Positions 37,240 through 41,506 of a stretch of DNA of 64,000 nt are shown one piece after another. A model generated the notes under the pieces. It saw only the letters and a program-made list of their open reading frames with translations. It had not been told where the DNA came from and did not search any database. This DNA comes from Arthrobacter sp. AFG7.2 (GTDB taxonomy: Bacteria > Actinomycetota > Actinomycetes > Actinomycetales > Micrococcaceae), in NCBI RefSeq assembly GCF_002892835.1, contig NZ_PJMB01000002.1:62001-126000 (forward strand), written 5' to 3'. The first letter of the stretch is position 1; every line of letters starts with the position of its first letter. The translations under genes and the position numbers were made by a program.

Positions 37240-38136
37240 ATGCGGATACTCGTCGTCGGAGCCGGAGCAACAGGCGGGGCGTTCGGCACGCTCCTGCAGG
37301 AAGCGGGACGGGATGTCACGTATCTGGTGCGGCCGCGCAAGCAGGAGGTCCTCCGCCGCGACGGGCTGCGCTTCATCTCCCCCACCACGGACCGGACGCA
37401 TCAGGTGCAGACCATCACTGCGGCGGACGGGCCTAAGCCGTTCGATCTGATCCTGGTCACCGTCAAAGCCACCGCGCTGGACGGCGTCCTCAACGAGATT
37501 GGGGCGTTCGTCGGGCCCGAAACCGCCATCATCCCGATCCTCAACGGCATGGCCCACGTGGACCAGCTTGAGCAGCAGTACCCGGGCCAGGTGCTCGGCG
37601 GCCTGGCCCGGATCGTTGCCACCCTCGACGGGGATGTGGTCCGCCAGAAAATGCCCCTCACCTCCCTCAATGTCGGCGGGCTCAACGGAAAGACCGTCCC
37701 TGCGCAGGTATCCGATGCACTGGCCGTGCCCGGCGTCGACTTTTCCATAGCCGACGACGTCACCGGCGCACTGTGGGAAAAATGGGCCTTTATCGCTGCG
37801 GCGGGAATCGTCAACTGCCTGTTCCGGGCGCCGGTGGGACGAATCATCGATGCCGGCGGGCGGGCCAGGATCCTGGAGGCGATCACGGAAACCGAAGGGG
37901 TGGCCGCAGCGGCAGGACATCCAGTGTCCGACGCCGGCCACGCGCAGGCCGTCGGTATACTCACCGAACCGGGCTCGGCCTTCACGTCCTCCCTCTACCG
38001 GGACCTCACCGCAGGCCTCCCTTCGGAGGCCGAACACATTCTCGGCGACCTCGCAGTTCGGGCCCACAGCCTCGACCTCAGCACGCCATTGCTGGACCTG
38101 ACCCTCATCCAGATCAGGGCCGGCCTGCCCGCCTGA
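37240..38136 (+). CDS. Ketopantoate reductase-family protein (PanE/ApbA-like)
   Basis: 298 residues. N-terminal Rossmann fold starting RILVVGAGATGGAFGTLL, then LILVTVKATALDGVL, ILNGMAHVDQL, the helical domain with WEKWAFIAAAGIVNCL (catalytic Lys in WEKW) and a late SLYRDLTAG segment. These enzymes reduce 2-dehydropantoate or similar 2-oxo acids with NADPH. With no other pan gene nearby, the substrate may be different. Confidence 0.88.
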   Translation: MRILVVGAGATGGAFGTLLQEAGRDVTYLVRPRKQEVLRRDGLRFISPTTDRTHQVQTITAADGPKPFDLILVTVKATALDGVLNEIGAFVGPETAIIPILNGMAHVDQLEQQYPGQVLGGLARIVATLDGDVVRQKMPLTSLNVGGLNGKTVPAQVSDALAVPGVDFSIADDVTGALWEKWAFIAAAGIVNCLFRAPVGRIIDAGGRARILEAITETEGVAAAAGHPVSDAGHAQAVGILTEPGSAFTSSLYRDLTAGLPSEAEHILGDLAVRAHSLDLSTPLLDLTLIQIRAGLPA

Positions 38137-38168
38137 AAACGGTGACCTGACCGGCGTAGCCTGAAGCC

Positions 38169-39383
38169 ATGGCATCCGAGGTCCGGAACCTGTCCCTGCG
38201 CACCGGCATCACGGTGCCGTGCCTGATCCTGGGTGACACGGACGCGAAGCCGTTGCTCCTGCTGCACGCGTGGGGTGAATCCCGGCTCTGCTTCAACCGC
38301 CTGCTGCCGTTGCTTGCCGGCTTCCGGGTCTATGCTCCGGATCTCCGCGGCCAGGGCGAGGCGGACAATCCGGAGGACGGCTACTCCCTGGCGGAGCAGG
38401 CCGAGGACGCCGCCGCGATCCTGGACGCCCTTGGGGTGACGACGGCGTTCGTCCTCGGTTCCTCCAGCGGCGGTTACGTCGCCCAGCAGCTCGCGGTGGC
38501 GCATCCCGGGCGGGTGGCGGCGCTGGTCCTGGTGGGGTCGCCGCTGAGCCTGCAGGGGCGGCCGGCCTTCGCCGACGAGGTGGACCTGCTGGCGGACCCC
38601 ATCGACGAGGACTGGGTCCGGGCCTCGCTCTCCTGGTTCACCCTGCACCAGCCTGTTCCGGGCTGGTACCTGGCGGACCGGGTGCGCGACGGCGTCCGGA
38701 TGCCGGCCCACGCGTGGAAGAAGATCCTGGCCGGACTGACGGCCGCCACCCCGCCCACGGAAGCCGGAACCATCCGGACGCCCACGCTGATCATCTATGG
38801 CGGTCAGGATGACCTGCTGCCAAGGAAGGACCAGGAGGTCCTGGCATCGCGGATTCCGGGTGCAGTACTGCAGGTCTATCCCGACGCCGGGCACCTGGTT
38901 CTGTGGGAGCACCCGGACCGGGTCGCGTCAGACGCCGCAGCCTTCCTGCACTCGCTGGAGAAGCACCCGACAGCAACGGAGGACCCCAACGATTCCGGGC
39001 CGTTCTACCACGGCACCAAAGCCGACCTGCGGCCCGGGGACCTGCTGGTCCCCGGCTATGTGTCCAACTACGGCAGCCGAAAAACGGCCAACCACATCTA
39101 CTTCACGGCCACCCTGGACGCCGCCGCGTGGGGTGCTGAACTCAGCGAGGGCGACGGGCCGGGCAGGATCTACCGGGTGGAGCCCACCGGACCGTTTGAG
39201 AACGACCCCAACCTGACCGACAAAAAGTTCCCCGGTAACCCCACCCGGTCCTACCGCACCCGGGAAGCCCTCCGCGTGCTAGGTGAGGTTTCGGACTGGC
39301 AGCCGCACTCCCCCGAGGCACTGCAGCATATGCGCAACCACCTGGAGGAACTGAAGCGGCAGGGCATCGAGGCCATCGACTAA
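38169..39383 (+). CDS. Alpha/beta hydrolase fused to rifamycin ADP-ribosyltransferase (Arr) domain
   Basis: 404 residues. Residues 1-265 are an alpha/beta hydrolase with nucleophile S99 (GSSSGG), acid D214 (GGQDDLLP) and base H242 (DAGHLVLWEH). Residues about 278-404 are a complete Arr domain: FYHGTKADL (H281), NHIYFTATL (Y311), GPFENDPNLTDKKFPGNPTR (D346). The 30- and 35-residue spacings equal those of the H19, Y49, D84 set known for mycobacterial Arr. Arr uses NAD+ to ADP-ribosylate rifamycins at the C23 hydroxyl and inactivates them. The hydrolase may act on the same macrolactam or on a different substrate. Stand-alone Arr is about 140 residues, so the fusion is notable. Confidence 0.9.
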   Translation: MASEVRNLSLRTGITVPCLILGDTDAKPLLLLHAWGESRLCFNRLLPLLAGFRVYAPDLRGQGEADNPEDGYSLAEQAEDAAAILDALGVTTAFVLGSSSGGYVAQQLAVAHPGRVAALVLVGSPLSLQGRPAFADEVDLLADPIDEDWVRASLSWFTLHQPVPGWYLADRVRDGVRMPAHAWKKILAGLTAATPPTEAGTIRTPTLIIYGGQDDLLPRKDQEVLASRIPGAVLQVYPDAGHLVLWEHPDRVASDAAAFLHSLEKHPTATEDPNDSGPFYHGTKADLRPGDLLVPGYVSNYGSRKTANHIYFTATLDAAAWGAELSEGDGPGRIYRVEPTGPFENDPNLTDKKFPGNPTRSYRTREALRVLGEVSDWQPHSPEALQHMRNHLEELKRQGIEAID

Positions 39384-39410: not shown

Positions 39411-41468
39411 TCAGCCCTCCGTGCCGGCGCGGATGACGGCCACCCCGACAGGCTCGAGCTTCAGGCTCTCTCCGACGGCCACCTGCCGCCCGGCCAGTAA
39501 CTCAAGCCCCGAAACCTCAAGGTCCACGACGGCTGCGGATCCTGAGTGGTTGAGGAAAAAGAGGTACCGCCTGCTGCCGGTAAACCGTTCGGTGACCTCC
39601 ACACCCTCGGGTGCAGCATGCGGCGGCCGGATCCCTGCGTCGTTAAGAACGGCCTCGACCACCCGGTCCAGCGCTTCCTGGGCAAGGTGTGTACCCAGAT
39701 AGACGGCCCGCCCGGTGCCCGGCCGGTGATCCAGGATGGCCGGCCGTCCGGCCAGGTAACCGTCAGTGTAAACAGCGACGACGTCCGCCCCCTCTACGGC
39801 GAGGTCGTCCTGCCAGCGGGAGGCCCCGTCGTCGAACCCTTGCACCGTCCCGCTGAGCAGCGTCTGGCCGGAAGCGGGCGTGATCCCCACCGTTGCGCCC
39901 GGGGCGAGGGGCGAGAAGTCACGGATATGCCCTCCGATGACCCCGCGCAGCCCGCCGGGGTAGCCGTTCTCGATGATCTGGTCATCCTGGTCCACGATCC
40001 CCGAGAAATACGAGACGAGCGCGTGACCGCCACCCTCCACGAAGGACTCGACGGCGAGCTGCTGAGTTGGGCTCATCAGGTACTGGTTGGGAATCACCAG
40101 GACCTTGTAGCGGGACAAGTCCGAGGACAGCGTCACAACGTCGACGGCAGCATTCGTCCTCCAGAGTGACTGGTAATGCCCGGCAACCACTTCCCGGTAG
40201 TTGTAGTTGTTCAACGGATGCGCGGCGCCCTCCACCGCCCACCAGTTCTCCCAGTCCCAGACGATGGCCACCTCGGCGGCGCTCCTGGAGCCCGCCAGCT
40301 CTGCAAGAGCTGCCAGTTCCTTCCCCAACTGCCGGACCTCCTGCCAGGTCCGGCTTGCTTCACCGCCGTGCGGAAGCATGGCCGAGTGGAACTTTTCCTG
40401 CCCGAAGCGTGAAGCCCGCCACTGGAAAAACATCACGGCATCGGCGCCGCGGGCAATGGCCTGGTAGGAGCCAAGGCGCATCATCCCGGGTTGTTTGGGA
40501 AGGTTCACCTTCCACTGGCTCACCGCCCCTGCGGCCTGTTCCATCATCATCCACGGCTTGCCGTCCCCCAGGTGCCGCATCAGGTCATACTGCATCGCTG
40601 CCTCCACCAGTGACGCCGGCTTGGCCGGATCCGGATAGATGTCCAGGGCGATCACGTCTGTTTCCGGCGCCCACCGCCGGTAGTCCTGGACCCGGAAAAA
40701 CTGCACGAAGTTGGTGGTGGCGGGAATCCCGGGGGTGATGCTTTTGAGCAGGTCCCGCTCCTGCCGGTAAAGGTCCACCTGGATATCCGTGGCGAATCGC
40801 GCAAAGTCCAGCTCCCGCGCGGGGTTCACCCAGCCACGCACGGGGCGCGGAAGGTGCACCTGGTTCCAGTCGCTGTACACCTGCCCCCACAAGGTGGTCC
40901 CCCAGCGTGTGTTCAGCTCATCCAAACTTCCGTGCTTACCCTGCAACCAGGTCCGGAAACCGTCGTCGCACAGGTCGCAGAAGCACTGCGCGTGGTATTC
41001 ATTACCGATGTGCCACATGGCAAGCGCCGGGTGGGCGCCGTAGCGCTGTGCCAGTTGGCGGGCCATCCGCTGGCTCCGGTCCCGGTACACGGGCGACGAC
41101 GGGCAGAAGTGGCCCCGGCTGCCCACCCCCACCCGCGTTCCATCACGTTCCACCATGAGCGCCTCCGGGAAATCCGTGGCGAGCCACGGCGGCGGCGACG
41201 CGTTGGGGGTGGCCAGGTTGACCAGGATTCCGTTCTCCCCGAGCAGGTCCATGACCTCGTCCAGCCAGCCAAAGTTGAAGTCGCCGTCTGCGGGTTCCAG
41301 CAGCGACCAGGAGAACACGCCCAGGCTGACCAGGGTGACGTTGGCTTCACGCATCAGCCGGATGTCATCCTGCCAGGTGCTGCGGGGCCACTGTTCAGGG
41401 TTGTAGTCACCGCCGTATATGATCCCCGGCAGGCGCTGGCGGAAGGACTCGAGGGGTTTGGGACTCAT
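39411..41468 (-). CDS. GH42 beta-galactosidase
   Basis: 685 residues from ATG 41468. GH42 marks: IYGGDYNPEQWP near the N-terminus, acid/base E157 in WHIGNEYH, the adjacent Cys cluster CFCDLC (metal site in the family) and nucleophile E310 in WMMMEQAAG. A beta-galactosidase trimerisation domain follows from about 400, and a small C-terminal beta domain. No signal peptide, so it is cytosolic and would act on imported galacto-oligosaccharide. Downstream of the sugar-binding protein gene on the minus strand. Confidence 0.95.
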   Translation of the reverse strand: MSPKPLESFRQRLPGIIYGGDYNPEQWPRSTWQDDIRLMREANVTLVSLGVFSWSLLEPADGDFNFGWLDEVMDLLGENGILVNLATPNASPPPWLATDFPEALMVERDGTRVGVGSRGHFCPSSPVYRDRSQRMARQLAQRYGAHPALAMWHIGNEYHAQCFCDLCDDGFRTWLQGKHGSLDELNTRWGTTLWGQVYSDWNQVHLPRPVRGWVNPARELDFARFATDIQVDLYRQERDLLKSITPGIPATTNFVQFFRVQDYRRWAPETDVIALDIYPDPAKPASLVEAAMQYDLMRHLGDGKPWMMMEQAAGAVSQWKVNLPKQPGMMRLGSYQAIARGADAVMFFQWRASRFGQEKFHSAMLPHGGEASRTWQEVRQLGKELAALAELAGSRSAAEVAIVWDWENWWAVEGAAHPLNNYNYREVVAGHYQSLWRTNAAVDVVTLSSDLSRYKVLVIPNQYLMSPTQQLAVESFVEGGGHALVSYFSGIVDQDDQIIENGYPGGLRGVIGGHIRDFSPLAPGATVGITPASGQTLLSGTVQGFDDGASRWQDDLAVEGADVVAVYTDGYLAGRPAILDHRPGTGRAVYLGTHLAQEALDRVVEAVLNDAGIRPPHAAPEGVEVTERFTGSRRYLFFLNHSGSAAVVDLEVSGLELLAGRQVAVGESLKLEPVGVAVIRAGTEG

Positions 41469-41506
41469 GGCAGGCACTTTCGGAGTGGGAACTGGTGGCA
41501 AGGAGG

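Follow-up and report, generated by a model that had tools for sequence, protein, structure and literature searches.

Does the gene at positions 38169 to 39383 of the window, the 64,000-nucleotide stretch of Arthrobacter sp. AFG7.2 DNA that was analysed here, encode a genuine fusion of an alpha/beta-hydrolase with the rifamycin ADP-ribosyltransferase Arr, and would the two halves take part in one reaction? The features on which the answer depends are given below in the order of their coordinates.

37240..38136, plus strand: PanE/ApbA-like ketopantoate reductase (PF02558 and PF08546), ending 32 bp upstream of the fusion
38153..38172, plus strand: conserved start-proximal element GGCGTAGCCTGAAGCCATGG, with a putative -10 hexamer TAGCCT at 38157-38162
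38169..39383, plus strand: fused alpha/beta-hydrolase and Arr gene, a single open frame from ATG to TAA, 404 aa
38247..38915, plus strand: alpha/beta-hydrolase domain, residues 27-249 (PF00561 Abhydrolase_1, whole-protein E 5.3e-34, Pfam)
38463-38465, 38808-38810 and 38892-38894, plus strand: S99, D214 and H242, the catalytic set of the hydrolase half
38955..38957, plus strand: CTG codon at the junction (L263), which takes the place of the ATG start when aligned with stand-alone arr genes, including that of Arthrobacter nitrophenolicus (G040)
38958..39002, plus strand: linker, residues 264-278, which aligns with the tail at the N-terminus of stand-alone Arr
39003..39299, plus strand: Arr domain, residues 279-377 (PF12120 Arr-ms, profile positions 1-99 of 99, 5e-48, 161.8 bits, cut-off 25)
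39009-39011, 39099-39101 and 39204-39206, plus strand: H281, Y311 and D346 of the Arr half
39411..41501, minus strand: GH42 beta-galactosidase (PF02449), convergent with the fusion

The earlier note had described this gene as an alpha/beta-hydrolase joined to a complete Arr, and the description held: the 404-aa frame showed no internal stop on translation, PF00561 was matched in the N-terminal half and PF12120 over its full length in the C-terminal half, and the latter scored 203.3 bits against the NCBIfam equivalog model NF033144 (rifampin_ARR; cut-off, 130 bits). Its further claim that both catalytic sets, S99-D214-H242 and H281-Y311-D346, are kept was likewise confirmed. S99 is housed in GSSSG, a G-x-S-x-G motif, with D214 and H242 present, and residues 270 to 402 aligned with residues 8 to 140 of Arr-ms (PDB 2hw2) over 133 residues without a gap, which placed H281, Y311 and D346 at Arr-ms positions 19, 49 and 84, with the spacing of the known enzyme. 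We take the Arr-ms counterpart of Y311 to be the tyrosine numbered Y49. The Arr half also contains the NAD motifs HGT (residues 281-283) and SNY (residues 300-302), and seven of the nine residues of rifamycin site 1 are kept (VTDKKLPGN in Arr-ms versus LTDKKFPGN here). In a 2021 Arr survey (PMC8492726), D84 is given as the catalytic residue, HGT and S[NH][YF] as the NAD motifs, and the tyrosine is numbered Y45. The fused Arr half therefore resembles Arr-ms in its full-length domain, its gapless 133-residue alignment, the HGT and SNY motifs and the catalytic Asp, but it differs in being the C-terminal part of a 404-aa protein with no start of its own, as against an enzyme of 140 to 150 aa (PMC8492726). 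Given the N-terminal hydrolase and a size beyond the 140 to 150 aa of verified Arr enzymes, the whole protein is an atypical Arr, of which the Arr half is a member domain. An AlphaFold model of the full protein, built from 20 sequences (mean pLDDT 69, pTM 0.60, Arr half poor) and not permitting inference of the domain orientation, gave pLDDT values below 50 at residues 265 to 277 of the linker.

The hydrolase half displayed the fold, the Ser-Asp-His set and the G-x-S-x-G motif of PF00561 serine hydrolases. Compared with NCBIfam, it gave only matches below the cut-offs, the best being models of 3-oxoadipate enol-lactonase (25 of 37 families listed), and PcaD identity was rejected since the score against TIGR02427 was 101.8 bits, under the cut-off of 255.85. 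The nearest solved relatives by sequence were 5egn (Est816) and 6eb3 (Est1), and a search with the AlphaFold model returned 3om8 and esterases as nearest by fold, a result that confirms the hydrolase class only. Est816 has been described as degrading acyl-homoserine lactones. Stand-alone hydrolases of Arthrobacter and Pseudarthrobacter were 56 to 80% identical over approximately residues 1 to 263 (82 to 87% for broken copies) and share with the fusion the Ser-Asp-His set and the start-proximal element, but these proteins end at about residue 264. The fused hydrolase is an ordinary member of this family, and the hydrolase half is most likely an esterase/lactonase-type serine hydrolase that would act separately from Arr. 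Broken stand-alone copies, disrupted by a deletion or by frameshifts, were observed at L083, L084, L085 and L086 in G048, G088, G162 and, as a second copy, G055, suggesting that the hydrolase gene may be dispensable in some species.

The full fusion was found in 6 of the 206 genomes of the genus, namely the window genome (G000), G050, G153, Arthrobacter sp. AK04 (G054), Pseudarthrobacter polychromogenes (G052) and Arthrobacter sp. OY3WO11 (G081). The five proteins outside the window were 86 to 89% identical to the window protein and carried both domains in one frame, which ruled out an assembly error. In each of the six genomes, the fusion was the sole match to the window protein at E<=1e-20 among the matches listed, and each genome holds one Arr copy; further matches in the window genome (4.05 Mb) were 26 to 40% identical and fell on the hydrolase half. 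The Arr domain is present in 76 of the 206 genus genomes and the hydrolase family (identity of 56% or more, matches listed down to about 1e-45) in at least 97, at least 47 of which are without Arr; both tallies count fragments, and that of the hydrolase includes broken copies. Another search yielded 37 loci, and the 3 fused ones proved to be the same contigs as those of G052, G054 and G081.

A profile search revealed no additional Arr fused in frame to a hydrolase, either in 27 more loci of the genus, a set that omits a few Arr frames (e.g., in G029 and G140), or in 80 loci of other genera, which were picked from Arr matches with the genus rows, fragments and weaker rows of one search omitted; the hydrolase profile was built from sequences of this analysis and may miss distant hydrolases. 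As for plasmids, none of the 3697 matching records exceeded 80% identity to the query, 8 records had one place over 80% of the query, only 27 to 30% identical among the matches listed, and no hydrolase-Arr fusion was present in the best 25 of the 3697. Within the reach of these searches, the fusion occurs in a few Arthrobacter/Pseudarthrobacter species only. Tandem Arr domains were seen at L247 (7055-7666) in genome G538.

Mean dN/dS values, calculated by the Nei-Gojobori method and averaged over sequence pairs, were 0.222 for residues 1 to 262 and 0.176 for residues 276 to 404 of the six fusions (15 pairs), and 0.536 for linker residues 263 to 275 (14 pairs of fusions). The corresponding values were 0.260 for stand-alone hydrolases (12 of 32 used) and 0.131 for stand-alone Arr (14 of 15 used). 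The hydrolase Ser, Asp and His were kept in all six fusions and in all 32 stand-alone homologues checked; the Arr His, Tyr and Asp were kept in all six fusions and in 13, 15 and 15, respectively, of 15 stand-alone copies. These low ratios and the conserved catalytic residues indicated that both halves are under purifying selection and that both are maintained. Its rarity, in 6 of 206 genomes, is what one would expect if the fusion were an assembly error or the neutral read-through product of a decaying gene. Such an origin is extremely improbable and already contradicted, as this fused frame recurs in six genomes, both halves are under purifying selection and the catalytic sets are complete.

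How the halves came to be joined was suggested by the junction and by two unfused genes of A. nitrophenolicus. All the fusions but one share CTG at the junction, G081 having CTT, and, as aligned, what now serves as linker is the tail at the N-terminus of Arr. The G040 contig NZ_AOFD01000045.1 (loci L059 and L081) carries a close, unfused relative of each half, the pair lying on the same strand about 2.55 kb apart. The hydrolase of this pair terminates in FLRALG-stop and has a frameshift near codon 164, which is a draft error or decay; its arr has AAGGAGG followed by an ATGGAA start, the Met of which aligned with L263 of the fusion. The AK04 fusion DNA matched G040 at L081 6718-7521 and 10072-10479, with 9 bases between the two matches in AK04, and a further 2.4 kb upstream matched at 88.6%. 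This G040-type upstream DNA is clear only in AK04, being shorter or rearranged in G081, G052 and G050, reduced to 158 bases at 75% in G153, and absent beyond the fused gene in the window genome.

Between the hydrolase gene and arr of G040 lie an AlkD-like gene, a gene for a small likely membrane protein, and one for an EamA transporter. In G049 and G127, too, an AlkD-like gene lies close to arr (at 0.1 and 0.9 kb, respectively), with remaining flanks unlike those of G040, as expected if G040 represents the unfused state. Five of the six fusion genomes have an AlkD-like gene at another, conserved locus without arr (G153 had no match), and plain deletion alone is therefore not the full history. 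The simplest reading is that G040 retains the unfused state and that an ancestor common to the fusions lost the intervening DNA: a hydrolase gene and arr, near each other on one strand, would have lost the DNA between them, and the end of the hydrolase would now run into the former start codon of arr.

In the Arr tree, the fusions grouped together with a support of 67/82 and in 69% of bootstrap trees; in the hydrolase tree they did so in 18% (test p 0.468). Since neither tree settles whether G040 lies outside the fusion clade, the G040 arrangement may also have arisen by fission of an older fusion. A single origin of the fusion is probable, and the fusion looks real but young and local. Two further candidates were rejected. 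Vestigial Arr behind the stops of stand-alone hydrolases was ruled out, as tblastn extensions beyond approximately residue 264 contained stops or unrelated-looking sequence and no such remnant. The ketopantoate reductase was ruled out as an ancestral partner because its gene does not adjoin the fusion in any of the five other genomes, lying 4.7 kb off in G081 and giving no match in the stretches examined of the other four. The association of stand-alone arr with this DNA alkylation repair gene (AlkD-like, PF08713) in G040, G049 and G127 was observed at L081 7552-8250 and 10058-10480, at L303 and at L304.

The start of the fused gene resembles that of the stand-alone hydrolases. GGCGTAnCCTGA directly precedes the start of 23 of 32 stand-alone hydrolase genes (e.g., L014, L015 and L025) and of five fusions, the sixth fusion having GGCGTACGCTGA in its place; the looser pattern GTAnnCTG is present there in 29 of the 32. 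Beyond the element, upstream sequences diverge. With its flanks differing, the conserved GGCGTAnCCTGA has the appearance of a minimal leaderless promoter. The spacing of six bases between the TAGCCT hexamer and the ATG is suggestive of a leaderless transcript, of which TAGCCT is likely the -10 and the ATG the 5′ end.

In the window protein, no in-frame ATG, GTG or TTG occurs from residue 226 to the HGT motif at 281, indicating that Arr would hardly be made alone in this genome. Each of the five remaining fusions contains an in-frame GTG at a position between residues 232 and 252, which makes separate Arr synthesis possible there. The ribosome site of the G040 arr is absent from the fusion. The palindromic pattern CTTG-N0-6-CAAG, which we take to represent the RAE sequence, was absent from the 450 bp that precede each of the six fused genes, a comparison in which a diverged RAE could be missed, and it does precede some Arr genes of other families, e.g., at L146 and L151. 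At these two loci, which belong to two genomes and another family of the class, the palindrome GGGGCTTGCGGCAAGGCCCC or a near copy stands about 100 to 130 bp upstream of the Arr domain and fits the RAE pattern. Lacking a start, a ribosome site and a promoter of its own, Arr would be driven by the short promoter of the hydrolase, which would be leaderless and perhaps constitutive, and would be made in equal amounts with the hydrolase. In PMC10719064, a rifamycin-induced regulon of actinobacteria is described with a 19-bp RAE palindrome in the 5′ region.

Would the two halves then cooperate? The earlier note had raised the possibility of two-step drug inactivation. In such a scheme, the hydrolase would cut a rifamycin ester or amide (e.g., the 25-acetyl ester) and Arr would ADP-ribosylate the drug, or the hydrolase would act on the product of Arr. 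In favour of it, 10 of 27 loci of the genus have an alpha/beta-hydrolase gene no more than 700 bp from stand-alone arr, these hydrolases belonging to several subfamilies; in other genera such a neighbour accompanies 1 of 81 Arr copies (80 loci). However, several of the ten loci are close kin, the contrast was drawn after the fact, and among 19 fresh genus loci, whose Arr is mostly of a more distant class, 1 had such a neighbour. A random control of 20 regions of 20 kb returned no hydrolase at E<=1e-4 and one at 4e-4, which is fewer than expected and not a usable rate. Arr is also commoner in unfused genomes with the hydrolase than in those without (44 of 91 versus 26 of 109 among the matches listed, kinship ignored). 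This excess came from the 56 to 62% identical hydrolase class, with Arr in 23 of 29 genomes, and not from the class nearest the fused hydrolase (63% or more), with Arr in 21 of 62 versus 26 of 109 (p 0.21), both counts again among the matches listed and with kinship ignored. The 44 unfused genomes with both genes among the matches listed have them on one contig in 23 cases and on different contigs in 21, and only G040 holds them within 70 kb (3.4 kb between starts; the next, 74 kb). Nor did the literature on rifampicin deacetylation, by titles and abstract openings of the best matches, contain bacterial hydrolysis of rifamycin. Thus, with 1 of 19 fresh loci, a p of 0.21 and close genes in G040 only, a functional link is unsupported for the hydrolase of the fused class; no positive evidence for two-step inactivation outlasted these tests, and we regard it as unlikely. 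Quite doubtful, too, is the broader proposal that, in part of this group of soil actinobacteria, arr is repeatedly paired with serine hydrolases of several subfamilies, beside it, before it or fused to it, hydrolysis of ansamycins or of the ADP-ribosyl product completing inactivation and the fusion being the tightest form of the pairing.

The earlier note had also suggested that Arr may be redirected to a new substrate. The hydrolase domain would bring Arr to this substrate or make it, and the rifamycin role would be lost. An Arr without its own start, tied to a hydrolase of metabolic type, would fit such a change, but the Arr half scores far over the equivalog cut-off and retains the NAD motifs, the catalytic Asp (D346) and 7 of 9 site-1 residues, and its dN/dS of 0.18 is near the stand-alone value of 0.13 (14 of 15 stand-alone sequences used). 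Redirection was therefore not borne out, and conservation of this kind makes it a distinctly improbable outcome. We likewise have little expectation that the Arr half serves a stress or DNA-damage role as in Mycobacterium smegmatis, rather than resistance, with the fusion altering the timing of its synthesis. Such a role would draw on the DNA-damage role reported for the M. smegmatis Arr in PMC3138739 and on the AlkD-like repair gene near stand-alone arr in G040, G049 and G127; against it, the fusion has no AlkD-like neighbour in the five genomes that keep an AlkD-like gene elsewhere (G153, no match).

Other combinations were noticed near arr. A protein of about 800 aa with NAD/FAD-binding, flavin-monooxygenase-like and alpha/beta-hydrolase parts is encoded at L087 1259-3661 and L104 278-2692 (Pfam run on L087 only), on the same strand as arr and 2.4 to 2.8 kb upstream of it. 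Tandem alpha/beta-hydrolase domains in one frame (about 607 aa) lie close to arr at L095 7078-8901 and L099 4022-5839 (Pfam run on L095 only), the L099 copy being apparently frameshifted.

We put at roughly 0.6 the probability that the gene is a genuine, probably single-origin fusion, with both activities, probably separate, in a single polypeptide and with Arr under the hydrolase promoter; the activities, the DNA loss, the promoter and the uncoupled reactions are its predicted parts. The Arr half would use NAD to ADP-ribosylate the C-23 hydroxyl of rifamycins, the hydrolase half would act independently as an esterase/lactonase, and no coupled reaction would take place between them. ADP-ribosylation by Arr at rifamycin C-23 is reported in PMC8597724. 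The main consequence visible in the sequence would be regulatory, with Arr tied to the promoter and dose of the hydrolase.

With two enzyme domains in one resistance-related polypeptide, the fusion is comparable to AAC(6')-Ie/APH(2'')-Ia, both domains of which modify drugs of one class; it differs in that only its Arr half has a known drug role. We found no description of a hydrolase-Arr fusion among the matches listed from the open-licence PMC literature. The 2021 survey gives a range of 36 to 679 aa for Arr-domain proteins, and the words "hydrolase" and "fusion" are absent from its main text (PMC8492726). Both families are known; the combination is new, and its spread is narrow.

The fusion is a clear case of a resistance enzyme that has become a domain of a larger protein. 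Its hydrolase half would go unnoticed in surveys based on comparison with the known Arr enzyme only, or on naming the whole protein by the model that scores best. Should the hydrolase act on rifamycins, the fusion would inactivate them in two steps. As one genus contains the two genes fused, separate but neighbouring, and far apart, the effect of the fusion on resistance and regulation is directly testable.
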